64,000 nucleotides of DNA. Origin: Amphiura filiformis (lineage: Eukaryota > Echinodermata > Ophiuroidea > Amphilepidida > Amphiuridae). Positions 2,075 through 55,724 of this stretch are shown here, one piece after another. The notes under the pieces were generated by a model that saw only the letters and a list, made by a program, of their open reading frames with translations, was not told the origin of the DNA and made no database searches. Numbering within the stretch: position 1 is the stretch's first letter; the number at the start of each line of letters is the position of its first letter. The translations under genes and the position numbers were made by a program. The stretch covers positions 96,235,782 to 96,299,781 of the forward strand of contig NC_092628.1 of the NCBI RefSeq assembly GCF_039555335.1, in the 5' to 3' direction.

Positions 2075-2411
2075 TGGTCTAAAGTATATAAAAGTATACA
2101 TATTTAGAATGGCAAAGACTTGATAATTTCATCTGTGAGGTCAAATTTGGGCCAAAATGCCATTTTTGGCCCAAAATCCCAAAAATAATGGTTTTTGGCC
2201 CACTTCTTTTTTGTGCATCCTAACAAAAAAATTCTTGGGCCAACATTTTTTTTTTATTAATTTTTAAAAACTAGATCAAAATATCTTCATTTTTTTTAAT
2301 TTTGACCAATTTCACCAAAAATATTTGAAATTTGGGCCAAAATCTGGCTTTTTTATGATTTTTCTTTGAAAAATCAGCATTTTTTTGACCATTTTTGGTG
2401 CAAATTTCTCA
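2075..2411. repeat. GGCCAAAA-rich, internally palindromic low-complexity segment
   Basis: Words of the form ttGGGCCAAAAt and attttTGGCCCaa recur many times in both orientations, giving overlapping small palindromes in a T-rich background. It runs directly into the dispersed repeat that starts near 2416. I see no coding potential. Confidence 0.5.
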
Positions 2412-2530
2412 AAGTTGGCCCATGGTTCAGCTATGGTGTGGTAACCGCTCTAGTTACTCCATATTTTTGCCTTTTATTTTGAAAGAAAATGTATAATTTT
2501 TGCTATTATTAGTTCACGACACATGGCCTT
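2412..2530 (+). repeat. Dispersed repeat with GGTTCAGCTATGGTG head, copy 1
   Basis: The sequence begins ggcccatggttcagctatgg and continues through gtaaccgctctagttactcc. The same block recurs near 7012, 11123, 13793 and 21083 on the plus strand and near 32180, 41760 and 42640 on the minus strand. The head resembles the 5' half of a tRNA with an A box, so a tRNA-derived SINE is possible. It also borders the ~140-bp tandem arrays, so it may instead be the terminus of that element. Confidence 0.7.
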
Positions 2531-2565
2531 TTAAACACAGTGCTTTCTACTGAAGATACACTTCC

Positions 2566-2638
2566 GGTTTTGTGGTGCAGTAGCTAGAGCATTGGACTCA
2601 TGATCGTAAGGTTGTGGGTTCGAACCCCATTCTACATG
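2566..2638 (+). ncRNA. tRNA-like sequence (CAT anticodon position), probably a SINE head or tRNA pseudogene
   Basis: A clear B box and T arm are visible: stem GTGGG, loop TTCGAAC, stem CCCAT at about 2614-2630. An A-box-like TGGTGCAGTAGCTAGAGC sits upstream and CAT lies at the anticodon position (2599-2601). The anticodon stem has mismatches and the 7-base acceptor arms do not pair, so I read it as a tRNA-Met-like derived element and not a functional tRNA. Confidence 0.6.
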
Positions 2639-2760
2639 TTATACAAGGATGCATCTGCTAAAGATATCACTTATCATACAAAACAATATAATTATCTACT
2701 GAAGATAACATTTTGATTGTTTTGTATTACACAGATGCCATATACTGAAGATAGCACATA

Positions 2761-4625
2761 TATGGTCATTTTCACAGTAAAGGGTGTAACTTTTGATTTT
2801 TAGGGTCAAAATTTCAAACCACTTAAATATGTTTCTGTTTACTGTAATCATGCATAGAAGCAACTTAAATTCCAGTAAAATAATGTTTCAAGGCTTAAAC
2901 CTTTTGATTTCTGATAAAAAATTTGACATTTCCATAACATTTTGGTTAAAAACTAAAAAAAAATGTATTTTACATAATCTCAGAAAATTATGACATGAAA
3001 GCTGGAATACATGTGAAATCCCATTCCAAAGTAAGTCAACAGATATAAGTTAAATTTTATACCATGTTTTGCTATGTTTGTAATTGCAATTTTGAAAATT
3101 TTAACATCAAGGGTCATTTGCAATGGAAATTATCCAACCTTAAACATATTTTTTAAGTTTTAATTGGGTTCCTAAGATAATTTGAATGTCTAACTTCATG
3201 TACAAATACTACTTGTTGAAAGGAACCTCCCAGCCAAGTTTCACAGAAATTGGAGTTCTTTTTTAGAATTGGCAATTCAAGCGATTTGTGTTTCGGAGGC
3301 TTCAGTTAACAACACAGGTGATCATAAAAGTAAAATATTTGGCTAACTACTACAAGTTGACATGAAAAATAGGTAAAAAATATCACAATTACCAATTTTC
3401 ATGCTTTGCTTCTAAATATTGAATTTCAGTTGTGACAAAAATTAAATTATCACAGCAAGTCATTTTTTTTTGTTTCGGAGGCTTCATGTTAACAATGGTT
3501 AAACATTGCAGAAGTAGTTTTTTTGAAAACAACACTGTTGGGATCATCTAAGCTGTTATTTTCTTGCGTGTATTGAATCAATGATTCTATGCGGCAGATA
3601 TTGTAGATTTATAACATGGTCATTTTTTCACCCATTTGTTAAGTATGGTGTTATTTGCATGTGAAGCCTCCGAAACGGGCTTTCTTGGGTATCAGTATAT
3701 TTTTCAAACATTAACCATAATATCAATTTTTTTTTTTAATTTATGACATTCTGCACATACCATGTAACAATTACAATGCAGATATCAATATGGAACACAC
3801 CAATTTAGATATGCATAGATGATAATTAACCTTATTGTTGTTTCGGAGGCTTCATTTGTTTCGGAGGCTTCAATTGTTAACGGAAAGTTTGTATTGGGTC
3901 CCATTTTCAAACGGTGATATATATCTCCACGATTTAAAAACAAGTGACTTGAGGATCTACTTTGCTACATTTTGATAAATAGATTGGATGAGCTCTTTTA
4001 TTTATATTTGCCCAAGCTTGCTGAACAGTTTGTTTCGGAGGCTTCAAAAAAGTTAACGGAAAATTGGCTCTTTGAAGTCAAGATTTTATAAAAATTTTAA
4101 AAGCTTGCAAATCGACTAATTTTTGTTACCCATTTCAAGTTAAGATATCAACTGTTATGAATCAAGAAGTGAAGAAATAACCAAGAATTATGAACCAAAG
4201 CTATACCCACAAAGTTTGTTAACAATTGTTGACGGAAAATGAAGCCTCCGAAACGACAAATCTCAAAGCCCGGTTCTCAAAAATACAGGGCTGTTCACAA
4301 TTAAATCTAATGTGGCAGTGTTTACTGAACATATGACCGTACTTTCAGGATAAGAAAAATTATCCATGAACTAACTGAAGAAAACACAGGGTTTTACAAA
4401 AATGTTACTGTTTTTTATAGTTTTTCAAAATGGCAATATTAGGTACATTTAAGCCTGCTAAAACTGAACGCAGTAACTCCCGAAAATGATTATGCTACCC
4501 AAGGTAGCTGCTAACTAGATGACTTATGTGGCCAAAAATCATGGAATTCTGTGGCTTTATTAGAACACAACGGATCAAAATGTTAAAAATCTAAAGTTGC
4601 ACCCTTTACCGTGAAAATGACCATA
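2761..4625. mobile_element. 1.87 kb TA-flanked element with ~43-bp terminal inverted repeats
   Basis: The left end reads TATGGTCATTTTCACAGTAA and the right end is its near-exact reverse complement (TTACCGTGAAAATGACCATA). The similarity continues inward for about 43 bases through AAGGGTG and GATTTTTA. Both ends are flanked by TA, so it is a cut-and-paste DNA transposon or a non-autonomous derivative. No transposase is recognisable; the only ORF above 60 codons (2793-2993) matches nothing I know. The interior carries seven exact copies of a 15-bp motif, described separately. The right TA is immediately followed by a mariner derivative. Confidence 0.8.
3290..4254. repeat. Seven exact copies of GTTTCGGAGGCTTCA
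   Basis: Plus-strand copies lie at 3290-3304, 3472-3486, 3840-3854, 3858-3872 and 4032-4046. Minus-strand copies lie at 3662-3676 and 4240-4254. In five cases a GTTAAC-type word lies close by, twice extended to GTTAACGGAAA. The sequence between copies is AT-rich and not repeated, so this is not a tandem array. Conservation of only the 15-mer suggests protein-binding sites (inference). Confidence 0.85.
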
Positions 4626-4627
4626 TA

Positions 4628-5208
4628 CGAGGGGGTATCCAAAAGTTTTTGACATCACACAGAAGCGAAAGTGCTATACCGATGAAATTTTGCCAGTGTA
4701 ATCACTGGTCCTTATGTACATTATGGTCCAAAAATGGTCTCATAAGTATGTTTACTTTCTTCACAGGTGGCGCTAGATGGGAAGTAGGCGCATAACCTTT
4801 TCGTGATAAGATCCTCCACTTTCTTGAGTTTTTTTTTCACTGTGGCGCATCATCCGTAAGTGATGGACGTCCACTTCTTGGCTCATCTGCATGTGGCCAG
4901 TTTGGAAATTCCTTTTTCAAAAAGCAATAGTGCCATATGATGGGCAATCATCACCGTGAGATTGCTTTAATTTCATCATAGATTTTCTGAGCATTGTAGG
5001 CCTAAATGCAGGAACTTAATCATGAAATTTTCACCATATTACAGGTTATCGCCTTGCCCATCTAGTGCCCATGTAAAAAAAGTAAACATACTTATGAGAC
5101 CATTTTGGACCATAATGTACATAAGGACCAGTGATTACACTGGCAAAATTTCATCGGTATAGCACTTTCGCTTCTGTGTGATGTCAAAAACTTTTGGATA
5201 CCCCCTCG
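4628..5208 (-). mobile_element. Non-autonomous mariner-type element
   Basis: The ends CGAGGGGGTATCC and GGATACCCCCTCG are exact inverted repeats flanked by TA. The inverted similarity extends for roughly 140-150 bases on each side, through ACATACTTATGAGACCAT-type sequence to the CATCTAG region. TA duplication is the Tc1/mariner signature, and the core retains transposase-derived coding sequence. It is a deletion derivative: the catalytic DDD region is absent. Confidence 0.88.
4840..5035 (-). pseudogene. Remnant of mariner transposase N-terminal DNA-binding region
   Basis: On the minus strand I can read, in broken frames and in this order, NAQKIYDEIKAIS, then DDCPSYGTIAF, then KRNFQTGH, then EPRSGRPSLTDDAPQ. 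This is the layout of the paired helix-turn-helix region of animal mariner transposases, including the GRPS linker that joins DNA-binding and catalytic halves. At least one frameshift (between the IYDEIKAIS and DDCPSYG parts) and in-frame stops (after AF, and after DDAPQ) break it. The catalytic domain is missing. It shows that the surrounding element arose by internal deletion of an autonomous mariner. Confidence 0.82.
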
Positions 5209-5224
5209 TATATATATATATATA

Positions 5225-5285
5225 GATTGTTTTGTATTAAACAGGTATTATCTACTGAAGATAGCACAGGTGCTAGCTATATAAA
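5225..5285. repeat. Hairpin unit TCTACTGAAGATAGCAC
   Basis: One further copy of the TACTGAA-loop hairpin family follows the (TA)n run at the right end of the mariner derivative. Confidence 0.6.
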
Positions 5286-5399
5286 TAGATTCATCAAGGT
5301 TATTGGTAGACAATATGAAAGGTTTCTTTTGAACAAAACCAAAACTTTCACTTGCCATTGACGGTTTCACCTATCATGGTCAGTGACAGCACAATGAAT

Positions 5400-5860
5400 T
5401 TTATTGGGGGGAGGCAAAGTGAATTTCAGGGGTGGGCAAAGTGAATTTCAGTAAGAGGGGTGGGCAAAATTAACAAATTTTGTGCAAAATAGCTGCAAAA
5501 AGTGGAAATGTTCTAATTTTGGTGAAATGCCGTCCTGCCCCCTGTAGTTCCGCCACTGATCATGATCGATGGGCATCATCAAAATGATGATTGGTGATTC
5601 CTCCAGTTGGATGTATCCTGACTGAAGGTGGTGTCTTATAGGCAGGAGTGGATCATGCACATGACTTATGAAGTGGGTCCCTTGTCTTTGTTCATGACAT
5701 TGGGTCCTTGTCTTCTGATCAAAATTGATTCTTGACGGTTTCACCTATCATGGTCAGTGACAGCACAATTAATTTTATTGGGGGAGTGAATTTCAGGGGT
5801 GGGCAAAATCAACAAATTTTGTGCAAAATAGCTGCAAAAAGTGGAAATGTTCTAATTTTG
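5400..5860. repeat. Dispersed G-rich repeat, two partial copies
   Basis: Blocks at about 5405-5560 and 5775-5860 share gtgaatttcaggggtgggca, then aacaaattttgtgcaaaata and a gtggaaatgttctaatttt run. The first ends near a tccgccactgatc end. Related copies lie at 25312-25520 and 62920-63170. The G-rich end and the GCCACTG terminus resemble hAT-type MITE ends, but I could not find a matched left terminus. Confidence 0.65.
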
Positions 5861-6580
5861 GATGTATCCTGACTGAAGATGGTGTCTTATTAGGCAGGAG
5901 TGGATCATTCACATGACTTATAAAAGTGGATCCCCTTGTCTTTGTTCATGACATTGGGAATTTTGACCTTTTACCTTTATTTTTAACTCTGTGTGCCATC
6001 AAAATCCAAAAAAGTTTTTGCTGGAAAATGAAACTTACCATGGAGGTCTGTAATTACAAACTTGTTTGGACTTGGGATCTCGATGGCGTGGCCCATTATG
6101 ATGCTTTGAGGTTTGCCTGAGGGCGCTTTTCATCAAAACATTGGATTTGCTGTTTTTATGTACCATCAAGAACTTTTTTTCTTGTTTTTTGTGATGTAAC
6201 CATTTGGTACTTCAAAAAAAAAAAAATGCAAAACGCAGGTTGGGATGATGATGTTATGCCCTCCAAAGTTTGCCATTTGTAAACTAGGATCACAGAGGCC
6301 GAAATTTCAAGATTTTTTAAAGCTGAATGAAGGCACTGTGCATGCTCATATTGTACATGTGAGTTGTTGGTGTTAATATGTACCAATATAATTTTTTAGA
6401 AAAAATTTAATTATTTTTTGTATCGCAGTTGGGTACATAATAAGGAAGACTGGCTCTTAAATTACAAATCGTGTGCAAAAGGTTACTATTTTCAATGAGC
6501 TATGACTTTGCTAAAGAGTGCTTACAAATTAATAGTAGCACATAGTTTGATTTGTATTTCAAATATGCTATCTACTAAAG

Positions 6581-6774
6581 CAGGCTTTGAGTTTTAAGGA
6601 GTGCGAGTGTGATCTTACTCCACAACACTCCTTAAATGATCATAAGGAGTGTGATTTATCACACTCCTTAATCTTTAAGCTTAACACTCATGATTCACAA
6701 AATAGCACACCTCACAAGATTGAGGTGTGCTATTTATCACACACCTCAATTAATTTTTTAAAACTAAAAGCCTG
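6581..6774. mobile_element. Hairpin-rich MITE with CTAAAG flanking repeat, copy A
   Basis: Ends CAGGCTTT and AAAGCCTG are inverted, followed inward by AGTTTTAA and TTAAAACT. The flanks carry a direct CTAAAG on both sides, consistent with a 6-bp target duplication. Inside are two strong hairpins: AAGGAGTGTGAT/ATCACACTCCTT around a 2-base loop, and a second around TGAGGTGTG. A second copy lies at 10751-10930 inside copy B. Confidence 0.72.
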
Positions 6775-7011
6775 CTAAAGGTAACACTTGGATCGTTTTG
6801 CATGCCATAATGGTGCTGTCTACTAAAGATAACACTTTGATTGTTTTGTATACATGTGCTATCTTCAGTAGATACAAGGGTATTATGTGCTTGGGTGTTA
6901 AGCCCTTGAGACCAAGGTAGTGGATGGCACTGCGGATTGGCTGAATTTCCCCCCGTTTTTACCTTCAATTTTCATGATTTTTTTTTCAATTCTCAGAAAC
7001 CGCTAACTGTC

Positions 7012-7130
7012 AATGGCCCATGGTTCAGCTATGGTGTGGTAACCGCTCTAGTTACTCCATATTTTTGCCTTTTATTTTGAAAGAAAATGTATAATTTTTG
7101 CTATTATTAGTTCACGACACATGGCCTTTT
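7012..7130 (+). repeat. Dispersed GGTTCAGCTATGG repeat, copy 2
   Basis: Nearly identical to 2412-2530, starting with atggcccatggttcagctat and continuing through the cgctctagttactcc and ttgctattattagttcacg blocks. It belongs to the segmental repeat copy A. Confidence 0.75.
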
Positions 7131-7194
7131 TTTTAAACATTTCACTTGAAATGAACATATCCCCGATCAGATTTTAAAATCATAACTTAGATTG

Positions 7195-7690
7195 TCGTTT
7201 TGTATTACATGCATGCTATCTACTGAAGATAGCACGTAGTTTGTTTTGTATTTTACCATGCTATCTACTGAAGATTAGTTTTTCCTTCATTTTTGACCAT
7301 TGTTGTCAATCTTTGCCCCCCTTAAAAGATGGCTCCCCCTTGCCCCCCTATTTGCATACCCTCTGAAAAAGTGCTTGCTACGCCACTGCTGGTTTGTCAC
7401 TAGCACTTAATATTAGCATCTAAATTGTTTTGTGTGAAACCCATGCAATCTACTACTGAAGATATCACTTACATTGTTTTATATTACACATGTACCAGGT
7501 AGATTTTGTATTACACACATGCTTACTACTGAAGATACACGCACCAGGTAGATTTTGTATTACACACATGCTTACTACTGAAGATAGAACATACAGGTAG
7601 ATTTTGTATTACACACATGCTTACTACTGAAGATCATAACTTAGATTGTTGCTTTGTATTACATGCATGATATCTACTGAAGACAGGTTT
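7195..7690. repeat. Array of hairpin units spaced by TTTTGTATTACACACATG
   Basis: Several units of roughly 45-55 bases alternate a TACTGAAGATA hairpin with a GTAGATTTTGTATTACACAC spacer. The best-ordered part is 7490-7640. The same arrangement recurs at 11550-11770. Such units are non-coding and fit a minisatellite inside the dispersed repeat. Confidence 0.7.
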
Positions 7691-7739
7691 GACTATGAAA
7701 ACGATTCTCTTATAAATGCATCTATGCAGTTTCCACCTC

Positions 7740-7870
7740 GATACACCCAATATTTGCTTATTTTGGGTTTTGATGATGATGATAAAACATTAGTCTGAAG
7801 TTAAAATTATGAAGATGATACAGTTTATGATGTTTTGACAAAGTCTGTACAGAATTCTTATCATCTATAC
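7740..7870 (+). repeat. Dispersed repeat with TGATGATGATGATAAAAC core, copy 1
   Basis: The block tttgcttattttgggttttg, a short GAT microsatellite, aaaacattagtctgaag and a gatgttttgacaaagtc run recur at 16137-16240. I do not recognise the family. Confidence 0.65.
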
Positions 7871-8239
7871 CATATTATGCTGCACATAAGGCAATATAAT
7901 GCCAATTTGGCACAAAGTATGAACTTTGACCTCTATTATATCAGTTAAGAAGCTAGATCATGAAAAATGAAATTGGGATCTTGTTGGCGTATCTTTTTGT
8001 AATGCAGTAAAAAGCCCACATTGCGCTGCGCATCATTGTTCAAAGGAATTGAGGTCAAATTGACCTCCACAATGAGGCTAAGTCAATTTTCAAAAAATCA
8101 TTAAAATATGAAGATCAAGAGATTCCAAGCTAATTTTTATATTAATTGACAGAGAATTATGCCTTCTTTAATGAGTTGCTATTCTGAAAGTCAGGTGATG
8201 TTGACGCGCTGAAATACAGGCACGTAAAAATGCCCGAAA
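7871..8239. other. No feature recognised
   Basis: AT-rich sequence between a dispersed repeat and copy B of the segmental repeat; no ORF or structure that I can support. Confidence 0.45.
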
Positions 8240-8530
8240 ATAGGGAATTTTGACCATTTGACCTTTATTAAATCTGTGCGCCATCAAAATCCAAAAAGTT
8301 TTTGCTGGAAAATGAAACTTACCATGGAGGTCTTTAATTACAAACTTGTTCCGACTTGGGATCTCAATGGCGCGGCCCATTATGATGCTTTGAGGTTTGC
8401 CTGAGGGCGCTTTTCATCAAAACATTGGATTTGTTGTTTTTATGCGCCATCAAGAACTTTTTTTTTTTTTTTTTTTAATATAACCATTTGGTACTTCAAA
8501 AAAATGCAAAACGCAGGTTGGGATGATGAT
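8240..8530. repeat. Segmental repeat, copy B left part
   Basis: Aligns with about 5950-6253 of copy A, up to the words gcaggttgggatgatgatg, where the LINE begins. A long poly(T) run at about 8458-8477 is expanded relative to copy A. Confidence 0.85.
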
Positions 8531-10430
8531 GGCGCAAGATGTCTATCTTGCGGACGCATCCGAGAAAGAGTTTACAATTCTTTTCCAGTAATCTCTATCA
8601 GCCATCAGATTTGGGAGGTCATTAATTTCTTGATTGACGTTTTAAAGCTCGATGTAGTTGAATGGTCTTCTTCCTCTACATGTTCGTGGAAGCCTCATAC
8701 AGATGACATCTGAAATTATTTGGTCTTTTGCACGGTAGCAGTGGCCTGCAAATCTGGCTCGCCGTTGAGCAAGGACACCTGTGGAACACCATCATAGATC
8801 TCTGCTTTGGTTTTATGTTCACGCCAGGATATATTTCAACCCTCATCAACAGCCGGGTGTTTTCCTGAAGATCTTTCTTCATTGTCAGGTCTCACTTCCA
8901 TATAAGAGGATACTCTGCAGGCTCTAAAAAGGCAAATTTCTTGATATGTTGGACTGCCAGATGGTGTGCAGTTTTTGCAATGATGCTATGAGCTTTGCTA
9001 GAAAGTGCTTGCTGTCGGCAAATGAATGAACCAAGATATTTAAAGTCACACCTCCTTGAGTTTGCCATCCCGAGAAAGGATTGGAGTTGGGTTCTTATCT
9101 CCATTAATACACATATATTCTGTCTTCTTGGAATTGAGAGGCCAACTTTGGCGGAAGCATATTCTAAAGATGACAGAAGATCTTGGGCATCTTGTGATAA
9201 CGTAGCTGTTAAAAAGCGATGTGTCTGCATAAGATCGGTTAAATACTTGTTCTTTGATGTCAATCCCTTTGGAATGTCTATCGACTTGTCTACCACTATC
9301 ACAAAAAGGTAAGGGGCCAAGGTGTCGCCCTGCAGGATTCCAGCAGTAGAGAAAACTCTTCAGTTGGTCCAACCTGTTTGTACAAAACTTGAAGGATTAT
9401 CATACATTATTGCAATAGCATTCACAATCTCCTGAGGGAATAATTTGAAGAATATGCAGCATGGCCTTCCGGTTAACACTGTCGAAAGCTTTTGAGAAGT
9501 CAACAAACACAATATATGCCTGCTTCTTTGAGATTTTAAGCTCTTCTATTATCCTTCTAAGGGCAAGAATCTGTGGTGTGGTTGATCTACCCTTGCAGAA
9601 AACCATTTTGGTTACGTCTGAGAATAGGATCTAGATGAGGAGAAATCCTGTTGAGCAGCATAGTGTTATAGAGCTTGGCAGCAAGTGCTGACAGTGTGAT
9701 ACCTCTATAATTTGATGGTTGTGAAAGATCCCTTTCTTCGGGAAACCGTATAATTGTGATCTTGACAAGGCTTTTGGCTTATTTCCTTCATGGTTTCATT
9801 ACAGAAATCAAGCAGTTGCTGAAAGAGTGGGTTTTTCCAAACAATGGCTGGTATGTTGTCAGGACCAGGTGTTTTTGACTTGTTGAGCTTGCTCAGACCT
9901 TTTTGCAGTTCCTCCATAGTAAATGGACAGTGTGTATTGGGAGATCAGAGACATTGCAAAGAACGTGTCTTCAATTTTACGCTTGCTCTGGTTTCCCTAG
10001 TAAGTTGGAAAAGTGTAGAAACCAGTTGTCACGACGCTTTTCAGATGTATTGCCTTTCACTCTAACCACAGGAGCAGATTTGGTGTCAGTTATCTCCCGG
10101 AGGAGTTCCCAAGAAGCTGCATGTTTATATTCAATGGAGGTTGTCAAGTTCCTCTGTCTTCTTTTGAATAGAGGACTCCAGAGTTTCTGTGTAGGCTTTA
10201 TCAAGAGTAACTTTGGCCGATTCGAGGAGCTTTTGTGAGGCTCGGGTGGATCTAGCATTGTGTTTCATAGATGCACTCTTTAAAACATCTCTTGCCTCAG
10301 TGACTTTGTCTGATGCAGCAATGTTGTAGGACTGCTTTGATTTTTTAGGGAGCATCTCCAGTGCAACTTCCTCATTAGCCGCAACTAAGGTATCATAAGT
10401 GGTGCTAATATTGGGTTCTTGTAGCTCATC
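8531..10430 (-). pseudogene. 5'-truncated non-LTR retrotransposon (LINE) reverse transcriptase
   Basis: Read on the minus strand, several frames together give an ordered reverse transcriptase. A helical linker (10355-10131, KKSKQSYNIAASDKV) is followed by LNKSKTPGPDNIPAIVWKNP near 9880-9820. Palm motif A is FVDFSKAFDS near 9500, then GILQGDTLAPYLFVIVVD near 9320-9280 (motif B). Motif C reads SYAD near 9225 but then shifts frame, so the YADD catalytic site is broken. The C-terminus near 8740-8540 shows HCYRAKDQIISDV, CRGRRPFNYIEL and MADRDYWKRIV, an ending common in marine-invertebrate LINEs. The apurinic endonuclease is missing, which fits 5' truncation at insertion. Several frameshifts make it inactive. 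Comparison with copy A shows the exact empty site. Clade is uncertain (RTE- or CR1-like). Confidence 0.92.
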
Positions 10431-10750
10431 TTATGCCCCTCCAAAGTTTGCCATTAGGCTCAGAGAGGCCGAAATTTCAAGATTTTTTAAAGCTGAATGA
10501 GAGTGCTGTGCATGCTCATATTGTACATGTGAGTTGTTGGTGTTAATATGTACCAATATAATTTTTTAGAGAAAATTTAATTATTTTTTGTATCGCAGTT
10601 GGGTACATAATAAGGAAGACTGGCTCTTAAATTGCAAATCTTGTGCAAAAGGTTACTATTTTCAATGAGCTATGACTTTGCTAAAGAGTGCTTACAAATT
10701 AATAGTAGCACATAGTTTGATTTGTATTTCAAATATGCTATCTACTAAAG

Positions 10751-10930
10751 CAGGCTTTGAGTTTTAAGGAGTGCGAGTGTGATCTCACTCCACAACACTC
10801 CTTAAACGAGTGTGATTTATCACACTCCTTAATCTTTAAGCTTAACACTCATGATTCACAAAATAGCACTCCTCACAAGTTTTTATTTATCACACACCTC
10901 AATTAATTTTTTTTAACTAAAAGCCTCCTA
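10751..10930. mobile_element. Hairpin-rich MITE, copy B
   Basis: Same ends and same internal hairpins as 6581-6774 with small deletions. The right end has mutated to AAAGCCTCCTAAAG. Confidence 0.7.
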
Positions 10931-11121
10931 AAGGGAACACTTGGATCGTTTTGCATGCCATAATGGTGCTGTCTACTAAAGATAGCACTTCAATTGTTTT
11001 GTATACATGTGCTATCTTCAGTAGATTATGTGCTCGGGTGTTAAGCCCTTGAGACCAAGGTAGTAGATGGCACTGCGGATTGGCTGAATTTCCCCCCAAT
11101 TCTCAGAAACCGCTGACTCTC

Positions 11122-11250
11122 AATGGCCCATGGTTCAGCTATGGTGTGGTAACCGCTCTAGTTACTTTTGCCTTTTATTTTGGGAAAGATTAGACTTTCC
11201 TCTTTCAGAAAATGTATAATTTTTGCTATTATTAGTTCAAGACACATGGC
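11122..11250 (+). repeat. Dispersed GGTTCAGCTATGG repeat, copy 3
   Basis: Starts at aatggcccatggttcagcta. It carries a small insertion (gggaaagattagactttcc) after the ttttgccttttatttt block compared with copy 2. Confidence 0.75.
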
Positions 11251-11771
11251 CTTTTAGTAAACATTTCACTTGAATGAACATATCCCCGAAGATTTTAAAA
11301 TCACAACTTAGATTGTCGTTTTGTATTACATGCATGCTATATATTGAAGATAGCTTGTAGTTTGTTTTGTATTTTACACATGCTATCTACTGAAGATAAG
11401 TTTTTTCCTTCATTTTTGACCATTTCTGTCAATCTTTGCCCCCCCCCTTAAAAGTTGGCTCCCCCCCTATTTGCCCACCCTCTGAAAATGTGCTTGCTAC
11501 GCCACTGCTGGTTTGTCACTAGCACTTAATATTATCATCTAAATTGTTTTGTGTGAAACATATGCAATCTACTACTGAAGATATCACTTACATTGTTTTG
11601 TATTACACATGTGCTATCTACTGAAGATAGCACGTACCAGGTAGATTTTGTATTACACACATGCTTACTACTGAAGATAGAACGTACCAGGTAGATTTTG
11701 TATTACACACATGCTTACTACTGAAGATCATAACTTAGATTGTTGTTTTGTATTACATGCATACTATTAGG

Positions 11772-13195
11772 CATATCACCTCAAAAATAATCGCAGCAGA
11801 AACACGTTATTTAATGTTCCTACATTATTGAGCTTTATTAAAGCATCAAAAATCAAAAAACAGAATTAAAATCGGTCAATGCATTGTGATGTAGTGTCAA
11901 TTTAAAGATGCTCGTAGATGGAATGAAATCCTGCCACAAATGGCTGTAATGACAAAATTGGCACATTTCGAGATTTTGAAGGTATATTTGGACGCTTGCT
12001 TAAAAAGCAGCGTTAATTTAAATATCACATGTTAAATGCCTATCTTTCCTGACTTCGTTACAGAAAACAAAATTAAAAAATCTATCATTGAATAATCATA
12101 ATAAATTAACCAAATATACTATTTTAGCAATTTTGGCCAATCTGCAGACAAATTAAATCTCAAAAAATGACTAAGTTCAGCTAATTAATATGCAAAATTG
12201 ATGCCAATAGAAAACCGTACATGATATAAAGGTGCGGGTTTTTTTGCACACATATGTATACAACGTTCTTTCAATTGATAAAAAAAAATAAACAAAAAGT
12301 AATTAATTATGCAAATTAGGTAATTACAGCTAATTATGTATTTATGATATTATTATGTAAATTAGGCATGAGTAATTTTAGGTTTTTTTCAATATTTAAT
12401 GAACGTCTGTTCATTCATCATAATTTTTTTAAGTATGATCCTGTTATGAGCTTGAATAAATGAACTGCAGTTAATTATTTAAAAACAATACAAAAAAAAT
12501 AAAAAGTTTGACATTTTGACGGTGTCTAGAATATAATTTTCATTTTTACTGTAAACATGGTATGTGTCACCATTACTCAAAGCCAAGTCCGAAAAGTAAA
12601 AATTAAAATTCAGTTGCAATGAGACTTTAAATTAACATTTTGTCATCTGGATTAACATGGGAGGACAATCGGTAAAGTGAACAGCAATTTTACTGTACCG
12701 TGTACCGTATACAAAAATAGTATGGCCTTGGACACACACAATGGCTTAGAGCTATTGTGGTTTGGAAAATTACTCCCTAAAAAAAACATTGATTATTGTT
12801 TTGCTTCAACTGGTTTTAGGGAAGTGTTTCATTTGTTGTCGACGGAATTAATTTACATGCTAAGAAAGATTAGTATTTCAGCTAAATGGTGGTAGTTCCT
12901 TTACTTCAATAGGCCTATATTTACTGATTTATGAGCGATCTTCAAAAATCCTAAAAAACAGGCAGTAGCTCTTAAACAAAACAATTTTTAATTTTTGAGG
13001 ACCCGATGTTAGCCTCGGAAAGGTTTCACACATCATATATTAAAAATTTAAACAATTTGGATAAATGAAGCATATGAATAAATTCATTTATCGACATGGA
13101 TGTTTTCTAAAATTTGCCAAATTTGAAGCGTGCCCTTTTCAATTCACTGTTATGCTTGCATGCACAGTGTAGCAGAATTATTGTGCAGCCACTGT
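11772..13195. other. AT-rich stretch without a recognisable gene
   Basis: Very AT-rich sequence with many A and T runs. The only ORF over 70 codons (12677-12895) has no domain I know, no splice context and no supporting neighbour. I see no element boundaries. Confidence 0.45.
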
Positions 13196-13199
13196 GACA

Positions 13200-13385
13200 T
13201 ACCTAATACTATCTACTGAAGATAGCACATAGTTTGTTTTGTATTTCACATATGCTATCTATTGAAGATAACACTTGGATCGGTTTGTATGCCATATAGG
13301 TGCTGTCTGCTAAAGAGCACTTTGATTGTTTTGTATTCATGTGCTATCTTCAGTAGATATGAGGGGCAATTGATAAGTTTGTGAC
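13200..13385. repeat. TACTGAAGATAGCAC hairpin units
   Basis: Three to four units of the hairpin family with the ttgttttgtatttcacat spacer, matching the arrangement near 6800 and 10975. Confidence 0.65.
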
Positions 13386-44296: not shown

Positions 44297-45016
44297 CAAA
44301 AGGGTCTCAAAACTACACAAGGGTCTCAAAAGTAAAAAAAAAAATCAAAAACACACAAAGGTTTCAGAAATAAACACACAGTTATGTCTCAATAGCACAA
44401 TACGGTCTCAAAAACAGAGAAAGGTCTCAGAAACAAACACACAACAATGTCTCAATAGTATAATAAGGTCTCAGAAACAGGGAAAGGTCTCAAATACAGA
44501 GAAAGGTCTCAAAAACAGAGAAAGGTCTCAAAAACAGAGAGAAGTCTCAAATACAGAGAAAGGTCTCAAAAGCAGAAAAAGGTCTCAAAAACACGTTAAG
44601 GTCTCAAAAACACGTTATGGTCTCAAAACACGTTATGGTCTCAAAAACACGTTATGGTTTTAAAACAGAGAAAGGTCTCAAAAACAGAGAAAGGTCTCAA
44701 ATACAGAGAAAGGTCTCAAAAACAGAGAAAGGTCTCAAAAACAGAGAAAGGTCTCAAAAACAGAGAAAGGTCTCAAAAACAGAAAAAGGTCTCAAAAACA
44801 CGTAATGGTCTCAAAAACACGTTATGGGCTCAAAAACACGTTATGGTCTCAAAAAACACGTTATGGTCTCAAAACACGTTATGGTCTCAAAAACACGTTA
44901 TGGTCTCAAAAAACACATTATGGTCTCAAAAACACGTTATGGTCTCAAAAACACGTTATGGTCTCAAAAACACATTATGGTCTCAAAAACACGTTATGGT
45001 CTCAAAAATACGTCAA
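44297..45016 (+). repeat. 19-bp GGTCTCAAAAACA minisatellite
   Basis: About 38 units, mostly 19 bases, all sharing GGTCTCAAAAACA. Two variants occur in blocks: one ending GAGAAA (44400-44590 and 44660-44790) and one ending CGTTAT (44590-44660 and 44800-45010). Because 19 is one more than a multiple of three and no stop occurs in any phase, all three plus frames stay open, giving long ORFs (up to 249 codons) that are almost certainly not genes. Confidence 0.92.
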
Positions 45017-52608: not shown

Positions 52609-52761
52609 ACTGGACATAACAGGATGCGTTATGTGTCATAGGTCGCTACAGCGGGCATGTTATGTGTCATAGGTCACATAACAGGGCGCGTTATGTGTCA
52701 TAGGTCATATAATAGGGCGTGTTGTGTCATGTCAGGTAACATGTAATAGGTCACATAACTG

Positions 52762-53092
52762 AGCGCACAGAATTAAAGACAGAGAATAGGGATTTGACCA
52801 CCATATTAATACAGGCATGGAGCAAAAATTTGGGGTATTCGGTTTCCCTTGGAATGCACTCGAGGCATTAGTTGTCATGCAAGCGCCGACATGGATGAAT
52901 GGAGCATTTGAGAGACGCACTTGATCGACCTGCACACGAGTACCAAGGCGCTTCAGGTGAGATGCCACATTGTTTTCGTTCGTCTCCACGCACCGTCGGC
53001 AAGGACCCGAATACCCCAATTTTCTCCCCATAGCTGATGGCGCGATTATGCGATGGCGGTATAGGGAGTCGGTTCTCCTTCTCTAATTTGGT
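52762..53092. other. First non-repeat insertion in the array
   Basis: A GC-richer 330-base segment. A minus-strand ORF of 99 codons (52732-53031) crosses it and continues into the repeat on one side. I see weak inverted words near the ends (ttgaccaccat against tttggtggcca) but no clear terminal repeat. No domain recognised. Confidence 0.45.
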
Positions 53093-53772
53093 GGCCATAG
53101 GTCATATCCGAGTGCGTTATGTGTCATAGGTCATATAACGGAGCACGTTATGTGTCATAGGTCACATAACGGGTGCGTTATGTGTCATAGTTCACATAAC
53201 AGGGCACGTTATGTGTCAGGTCATAATTAGCCCGTCATGTGTCATAGGTCATATATCGGGGTGCGTTATGTATCATAGGTCACATAATGGGGCATGTTAT
53301 GCTTTATAGGTCACATAACGGGCGCGTTATGCATCATAGGTCACATAGCAGGCGCGTTATGTGTCATAGGTCACATATCGGGGTGCATTATGTGTCATAT
53401 AACGGGGCGTTTATGTGTCGTAGGTCATATAACAGGTGTGTTATGTGTCATATGCGGGGAACGTTATGTGTTATAGGTCACATAACGGGGCACGTTATAT
53501 GTCATAGGTCACATAACTGGGTGCTTTATATGTCATTGGTCACATAACATGCCGCATTATGTGTCATAGGTCATATAACGTTGCATGTTATATGACATCA
53601 TAACTGGGCGCGTTATGTGTCATGTCATATAACGGGATGCATTATGTGTCATAGGTCATATAACGAGGCGCGTTATGTGTCATGTCATGTAATGGGACGC
53701 TTTGTCATAGGTCACATAACATGGCACATTATGTGTCATAGGTCACATAACATGGCACATTATGTGTCATAG

Positions 53773-54075
53773 GTCCAGAGAGAGAAAACAGAGCCCATGC
53801 CACCAGTCAAAGTCTCCGCATCATCTGATAATGAGGGCCGATTGTTCCATGAAATGCGACAGGCGAGAACCGCTACTCAATTACCGCATATTTTCATGGT
53901 GTATCGCGTAATCACGAAAGCACGCAATGCTCTATTATCGCGTACGCGAAGGCATGCAGCGCTGGCGTGATTGTTTGACACAACACGATCGAACAATCGG
54001 CCCTCATGAATATGCGAGAGCTCATCTTATACAATACACGGGAACTTTGGTGGTACGCTCTGTTTTCTCTCTCCT
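53773..54075. mobile_element. Second insertion: element with AGAGAGAAAACAGAGC ends
   Basis: Ends AGAGAGAGAAAACAGAGC and GCTCTGTTTTCTCTCTCC are inverted, followed inward by TGCCACCA and TGGTGGTA. A second inverted pair, AGGGCCGATTGTTC (53833) and GAACAATCGGCCCT (53989), lies further in. The 303-bp element sits between repeat units, so it inserted after the array formed. Confidence 0.82.
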
Positions 54076-54511
54076 CTGTGCATAGGTCATCATAACGGGG
54101 CGCGTTATGTGTCATAGGTCATATAATGGGCGCATTATGTGTCATAGGTCATAACGGTGCATAACGATGATAACGGGTGCGTTCTGTGTCATAGGTCATA
54201 ACGGGGCGCGTTATGTGTAGTAGGGCATGTAACGGGGCATGGTATGTGTCGTATGTCACATAACCGGGTGCGATTATGTGTCATAGGTCACATAACAGGG
54301 CATGTTAGTTGTCATAGGTCATATATCAGGGCGCGTTATGTGACATAGGTCAGATAACTGGGCGCGTTATGTGTCATAGGTCATACAATGGGGTGTGTTA
54401 TGTGTCATAGCTCATATAACGGGGCACTTTATGTATCATAGGTTATATAATGGGTGCGTCATATATAGGGCGCGTCATATAACAGGGCGCGTAATGTGTC
54501 ATACGTCATAT

Positions 54512-54792
54512 AACGGACCCTTGCCTTTGAAATTTCAAGGGTCCTCCCCAATTTTCAAGGGCCCTCCCCTGGACCCTTTCCTTTGAAATTTCAAGAGAGA
54601 GAATTAGCTACTGACGATCCAGCGTTGAAAAGTTGATGGGAAACTAAAATGAAAGTGTACTCAGGGGCTATGCGTATTATGTGAATCAGATGTTCCAGTG
54701 GAGCGACAAACTAGGATTTTCTTCTCTTTGCTTGGTTCAATTTTTACGTGTCACACGGACCCGTGCACCGTAGGAAATTTGCTTGGTCACAT
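54512..54792. other. Third non-repeat insertion in the array
   Basis: Starts with a duplicated ggacccttgcctttgaaatt and ctttcctttgaaatttcaag pair, then unique sequence with tgtcacacggacccgtgcac near its right end. No clear terminal inverted repeat. Confidence 0.5.
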
Positions 54793-55724
54793 GTCACATA
54801 ACAGGGCGCGTGTTATGTGTGTCATAGGTCACATAACGGGCACATTATGTGTCATAGGTCATATAACGGGCGTGTTATGTATCATAAGTCATATAATGGG
54901 GCGCATTACGTGTCATACAACGGGGTGCGTTATGTGTCATAGGTCATATAACGGGCACGGTAGGTGTCAGTTCATATACTGGGGCGCGTTATGTGTCATA
55001 GGTCATATAATGGGACGCGTTATGTGTCATAGGTCACATAAAAGGAGCATTATGTGTCATAGGTCACATAACGGACGTGTTATGTATCATAGGTCACATA
55101 CAGGGAGCGTTATGTGTCATACGTTACATAACGGGCACATTATGTGTCATAGGTCATATAATGGGGTGCGTTATGTGTCATAGGTCATATAACGAGGCGC
55201 GTTATGTGTCATAGGTCACATAATGGGGGCGTTATGTGTCATATGTCACATAGCGGGGCGTTATGTGACATATGTTACATATGGGCGTGTTATGTGTCAT
55301 AGGTCATATAGCAGGTAGCGTTATGTGCCACAGGTCATATAATGAGGCACGTTATGTGTCACATATAGGTCATATAAGCGGGCGCATGTGTCATAGGATG
55401 CATAACAGGGCGCGTTATGTGTCATAGGTCACATAATGGGGTGCGTTATGTGTCATAGGTCACATAACCGGGTGCATTATGTGTCATAGGATGCATAACA
55501 GGGCACGTTATGTGTCGTAGGTCACATAACGGGGCGCGTTATGTGTCATAGGTCATATAACGGGCACGTTATGTGTCATAGGTCACATAATAGGCATGTT
55601 ATGTGTCATTGGACACATAACAGGGCGTGTTATGTGTCATAGATCACATAACGGGGCATGTTATGTGTCAGAGGTCATATAACAGGCAGCGTTATGTGTC
55701 ATAGGTCATATAACGGAACAACTA

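Follow-up and report, generated by a model that had tools for sequence, protein, structure and literature searches.

The window analysed here, 64,000 nucleotides of the brittle star Amphiura filiformis (contig NC_092628.1, positions 96,235,782 to 96,299,781), holds an element of 1,869 bp (2759-4627 including the flanking TATA, 31% G+C) in which one 15-bp sequence, GTTTCGGAGGCTTCA, occurs seven times without a mismatch between 3290 and 4254. Judged from its sequence, the element is interpreted as one copy of a putative non-autonomous DNA transposon that has terminal inverted repeats (TIRs) and carries a maintained, composite array of binding sites, an interpretation to which we would give about an even chance. 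If it is right, exact 15-bp sites standing on an even grid of about 186 bp in otherwise unrelated DNA would indicate that site and spacing alike are under selection.

The seven boxes are the firmest part of this picture. All of those described in the first-pass annotation were recovered, five on the plus and two on the minus strand. Could such a set arise by chance? In 100 dinucleotide shuffles of the window the mean number of matches was 0.06 and the largest was 1, and a chance origin was rejected on these grounds. No further copy of GTTTCGGAGGCTTCA is present in the window at up to two mismatches, nor at three; with four mismatches allowed, there is one match in the element and nine elsewhere. 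A control listing gathered the 15-mers found at least four times in the window, after low-complexity words had been removed and adjacent ones joined into a single entry. Judged from coordinates, the other 15-mers in it are parts of satellites or minisatellites, or of longer shared repeats, and GTTTCGGAGGCTTCA is the only compact set lacking longer shared flanks. Two of the boxes form an 18-bp tandem doublet (3840/3858), the units of which differ only outside the 15 bp. As a separate observation, the base preceding the box, read by orientation, is T at the five plus copies (3289, 3471, 3839, 3857, 4031) and C at both minus copies (3662-3677, 4240-4255).

The boxes are accompanied by a second, shorter motif. 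GTTAAC has five copies in the element against 13 in the remaining 62 kb (P 5.5e-5 against the outside density). Four of the seven boxes have it downstream, starting at 0, 1, 3 and 5 bp, with a nominal P of about 1e-10 against the same density. The earlier description of the boxes as usually next to GTTAAC is accurate for these four and more loosely for a fifth, at 16 bp, but it does not extend to the box at 3662 or to the first of the doublet, which have no GTTAAC of their own. Two of the hexamers extend as GTTAACGGAAA, and one relative, GTTGACGGAAAA, stands beside an inverted box. As GTTAAC lies near the boxes at varied distance, the binding unit looks like a composite of the 15-mer and GTTAAC joined by a loose spacer. 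The 15-mer and the GTTAAC module were weighed against the CENP-B box, the MYB site and zinc-finger triplets, and we claim identity with none of them.

What kind of element carries these boxes? The TIR arms, the longest inverted pair listed within 2300-5100, enclose the whole array as had been proposed, but they measure 44 nt rather than 43 and are imperfect, matching at 41 of 44 positions. The layout also differs from the subterminal arrays mentioned for comparison in the first-pass annotation: the array is internal, as 531 bp of the element precede the first box and 373 bp follow the last. The original proposal, protein-binding sites explained by selection or very recent origin, is partly supported: the TIRs, the lack of Pfam-recognisable coding and the exact, non-random array speak for binding sites inside a non-autonomous transposon. 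None of the six reading frames of the element matches Pfam at E<=1 (above 0.1, most weak matches do not pass the filters of HMMER), and the longest of the 13 open reading frames (ORFs) of at least 35 aa listed for it has 66 aa; because of these two results the element is considered non-autonomous. A diverged stretch at 4302-4341 resembles the head of the right arm: none of 300 shuffles does as well against that arm, for which it scores highest among 2,118 tiles (18, next 16), and 20 of 300 do as well against the left arm, where it ties for best (15). It could be a subterminal repeat or an older end.

The termini of the element are TATGGTC or GGTC, according to the boundary chosen, and the flanks consist of (TA)n and an abutting miniature inverted-repeat transposable element (MITE), so that by eye target duplications of 2, 4 or 6 bp all fit according to the end chosen. 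With a (TA)n run as target and the mariner-like MITE against the right end, no one reading of a TA duplication stands out; flanking by TA, as first annotated, is possible. The MITE itself is presumed to be of mariner type from its CGAGGGGGTATCC ends. The 15-mer ACTGAAGATAGCACA is found at both 2744 and 5254, which places one satellite on either side of the element and its MITE neighbour, and by eye CACATA precedes the element and (TA)n-GATTGTTTTGTATTA follows the MITE. We read this sequence context as the probable insertion of the element into a (TA)n stretch of the flanking satellite. Beyond the element, the window gives only matches of up to 41 nt to it.

Several known classes were tried. 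CACTA (En/Spm) membership was rejected on the ends given above, which are not CACTA, and Foldback/Galileo membership on TIRs of only 44 nt and on the 18-bp doublet being the sole tandem repeat called in the element. Helitrons and Helentrons (HINE) are not known to have paired TIRs at both ends, and their core is a tandem repeat; here paired TIRs are present and the core is not recognisably tandem, and this class was set aside too. For Tc1/mariner, a TA duplication is possible, and the six-frame Pfam search gave no remains of a DDE/D transposase.

Table 1. Coordinates of the features discussed, in positions of the window
Feature	Position	Strand	Remarks
Left TIR	2759..2802	+	Includes flanking TATA; 41/44 complementary to 4584-4627
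Site 1	3290..3304	+	Followed by GTTAAC at 0 bp (3305)
Site 2	3472..3486	+	Followed by GTTAAC at 1 bp (3488)
Site 3, inverted	3662..3676	-	No GTTAAC nearby
Site 4, first of 18-bp tandem doublet	3840..3854	+	No GTTAAC of its own
Site 5, second of 18-bp doublet	3858..3872	+	Followed by GTTAACGGAAA at 3 bp (3876)
Site 6	4032..4046	+	Followed by GTTAACGGAAA at 5 bp (4052)
Site 7, inverted	4240..4254	-	GTTGACGGAAAA directly beside; GTTAAC (4218) 16 bp away
Zone of five GTTAAC modules	3305..4223	.	Starts 3305, 3488, 3876, 4052, 4218
Candidate diverged internal copy of right TIR head	4302..4341	-	286 bp inside right end
Right TIR	4584..4627	-	Includes flanking TATA; 41/44 complementary to 2759-2802
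Mariner-like MITE, outside the element and abutting its right boundary	4623..5213	.	176-bp inverted repeats, 94%

The boxes are evenly placed, a regularity that the first-pass annotation does not mention. Counting the doublet as one, the centre-to-centre gaps are 182, 190, 187, 183 and 208 bp, or about 186 bp, a value close to the general range of the nucleosome repeat. Among 60,000 sets of uniformly placed sites, with the closest pair merged when helpful, 6 were as regular; fixing the ends gave 3 of 60,000. In a separate simulation the figure for six clusters with fixed ends was 1.5e-5, and for random sets holding a doublet it was 0 of 105,204. Is the array then what is left of a satellite? 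A former tandem array of monomers of about 186 bp, of the sort present in Helentron HINE, Tetris or Galileo elements, could have drifted past recognition while a short box was kept by constraint, much as the CENP-B box is in alpha satellite, and the regular spacing would follow at once. Two reports describe transposable elements of this build, with a tandem core or tandem repeats inside (PMC7492417, PMC4079207). With the boxes masked, the self-match of the filler at lags 174-210 ranges from -2.5 to +2.1 standard deviations relative to lags 20-399 and stands at 0.4 at lag 186, with no clear excess across lags 20-399 and no peak near 186. Comparison of the seven blocks yields 3 of 42 results at P<0.06, about the chance level, and two of the three are the GTTAAC module. 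On the autocorrelation and the block comparison an ordinary tandem repeat within this copy is not supported, which agrees with the first description of the DNA between the copies as non-repeated. Two of the seven boxes are also inverted and one is doubled, which further argues against a decayed satellite. We regard that origin as unlikely, although a tandem array of about 186 bp in extreme decay would still fit the even spacing.

Are the boxes exact because they are kept or because they are young? The three differences among the 44 TIR positions translate into a P of about 0.04 for zero changes in the 105 box bases, about 0.02 if CpG is taken as 5-fold mutable and 0.015 if 10-fold, on the assumption that the element inserted with identical arms. 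CpG is depleted across the window (1189 observed, 2174 expected), yet each of the seven boxes has kept its CpG; the first 523 bp of the element (2759-3281) have none, and 19 of its 24 CpGs lie in 3282-4272. These counts, as far as sequence can tell, favour constraint as the reason for the intact boxes. A recent neutral origin would have the 15-mer copied inside the element by template switching or slippage, too young to have mutated and devoid of function. Exactness alone fits youth as well as it fits selection, the doublet is of the kind that slippage makes, and the TIR-based test gets only as far as P 0.015-0.04. Such copying would, on the other hand, have to place the same 15 bp, and no longer stretch around it, in either orientation and at nearly constant intervals, in many cases next to GTTAAC, and the GTTAAC modules and the spacers already differ between copies. 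We consider neutral copying a doubtful explanation, and a maintained array remains the preferred one.

How might a maintained array work? The inner kilobase would be a cassette in which one 15-bp box is repeated seven times unchanged, four times with GTTAAC close behind it, at steps of about one nucleosome repeat. A sequence-specific protein may occupy the boxes, perhaps one per linker, as the closeness of the spacing to the nucleosome repeat suggests. The candidate binder would be an accessory protein of transposition, as TNPA is for En/Spm, or alternatively a host zinc-finger protein, as Su(Hw) is at the gypsy insulator. Copies with intact boxes would spread better, and the boxes could thereby have become fixed while the filler drifted. 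A more specific version, which we advance tentatively and think improbable as it stands, is that of a chromatin-organising cassette: selection on spacing would hold the 15-mer and GTTAAC boxes one nucleosome repeat apart, and a bound protein in each linker would phase nucleosomes across the element, again with drifting filler. The phased nucleosomes could keep the element open for its transposase, or insulate or silence it. Selection on both site and spacing, if real, would make nucleosome phasing borne by a transposon directly testable and the 15-mer a ready marker for the binding protein and the autonomous partner.

Comparison with known systems places the element beside several of them. En/Spm (CACTA) elements hold many copies of a short subterminal motif that has a GC-rich and an AT-rich part and can form palindromes; a protein encoded by the element, TNPA, binds these repeats, which act in cis for transposition (PMC2613891). 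Many copies of a short motif within a transposon are common to both. En/Spm elements have CACTA ends, and their repeats vary and are packed into the subterminal regions (one end of Tgmt* has 24 in 732 bp), whereas the present sites are exact, internal and about 186 bp apart. The gypsy insulator is a group of 12 short Su(Hw) sites surrounded by AT-rich DNA and carried by a transposable element; the zinc-finger protein that binds them belongs to the host (PMC2374998). The likeness is again a cluster of short sites in AT-rich DNA of a transposable element; the present element differs in having TIRs, no retrotransposon coding, exact sites and nucleosome-length spacing. By analogy, the array would work like TNPA-type arrays or Su(Hw) sites, yet the element is a member of neither, because its ends are not CACTA and because it has TIRs and no retrotransposon coding. 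In Galileo and other foldback elements multiple binding sites for a THAP transposase are repeated within the element (PMC3688188). The extra sites there belong to long direct repeats within a TIR of 1.2 kb, in contrast to the 44-bp TIRs and unique filler found here. Cg_HINE and Tetris are non-autonomous elements that are periodic inside, with satellite-like repeats (PMC7492417, PMC4079207); their repeats are recognisable tandem repeats, unlike those of the present element, in which only the 15-mer and the short module recur. Binding-site arrays in transposons are already known, and those compared are dense, degenerate or made of visible repeats.

Another reading takes the boxes as sites of a site-specific recombinase that part invertible or exchangeable segments of about 170 bp, as in a cassette array or in the bacterial shufflon. 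Identical short sites in mixed orientation between unrelated segments of similar size are what such an array would look like. The six-frame Pfam search shows no recombinase domain in the element and none of its listed ORFs is longer than 66 aa, and we hold this reading to be very improbable, well below the other alternatives.

Does the element have relatives? All the sequence collections that were scanned consist, by design, of viral or prokaryotic DNA, and a lack of matches in them means little. The box occurs in 34 stretches of viral contigs, once in each, and none of the 34 has GTTAAC within 20 bp downstream; we read these matches as chance level, an expectation not having been computed. 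The pattern of box plus GTTAAC has no match in prokaryote contigs, and the long TIR pattern has none in either viral or prokaryote contigs. A shorter TIR pattern is found in four viral contigs, whose similarity to the TIR covers just 23 nt (91%); three of the four have the same sequence across 79 bases. BLAST of the element against the 38 loci retrieved returned only matches of up to 33 nt. A viral or prokaryotic element was rejected on the missing GTTAAC, the short BLAST matches and the lack of any prokaryote pattern match. Two ORFs of the window, tried as a route to sister copies, led to no relative, and Rfam reports no structured RNA at the gathering threshold in the window. In a literature string search three sub-strings of the 15-mer were not found; four sub-strings of the TIR were tried as well, and a single one, the 12-base GGTCATTTTCAC, turned up, in four papers unrelated by title.

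Several points weigh against a transposon with a maintained array. It is a single copy, for which the window and the viral and prokaryote contigs gave no sister copy and no autonomous partner, and no protein is known to bind the box. With no readable target duplication, the word transposon rests on the TIRs and on the same satellite being present on both sides. The two TIR arms may already have differed before the element inserted; this makes the constraint test weak and leaves constraint favoured rather than proven. The test for even spacing was framed after the gaps had been seen. Lag 189 ranks tenth of the 380 lags in the filler self-match (z 2.06), a value that counts towards a decayed satellite and may be a faint trace of periodicity. 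Finally, the sites are no nearer to A/T tracts than random positions are (mean 41 against 29 bp) and so carry no simple nucleosome-excluding mark.

The surroundings are rich in tandem repeats. A satellite of about 50 bp (TGTTTTGTATTACACA...CTACTGAAGATAGCAC) is both dispersed and tandem over 2690-13350, with larger repeated blocks at 6251-7668 and 10428-11762 (87%). Just to the left of it, at 2570-2640, a tRNA-like head of a short interspersed nuclear element with an GGTTCGAACCCC box is visible by eye; ARAGORN, run with the bacterial code, calls no tRNA there. Two fragments on the minus strand resemble reverse transcriptase. The one at 8895-9359 has 26 protein relatives, all with PF00078, and in Pfam itself only a sub-threshold match to another family; the one at 32478-32795 matches zf-RVT at E 3.8e-4, below the family cut-off. 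From the sequence, the window was judged to be eukaryotic and probably that of an invertebrate animal. Further along the window lie a 19-bp minisatellite, GGTCTCAAAAACACGTTAT (44386-45013), whose periodicity gives long open frames, and a 31-bp minisatellite around GCGTTATGTGTCATAGGTCACATAACGGGGC (52612-55716), which forms several blocks over 3 kb.
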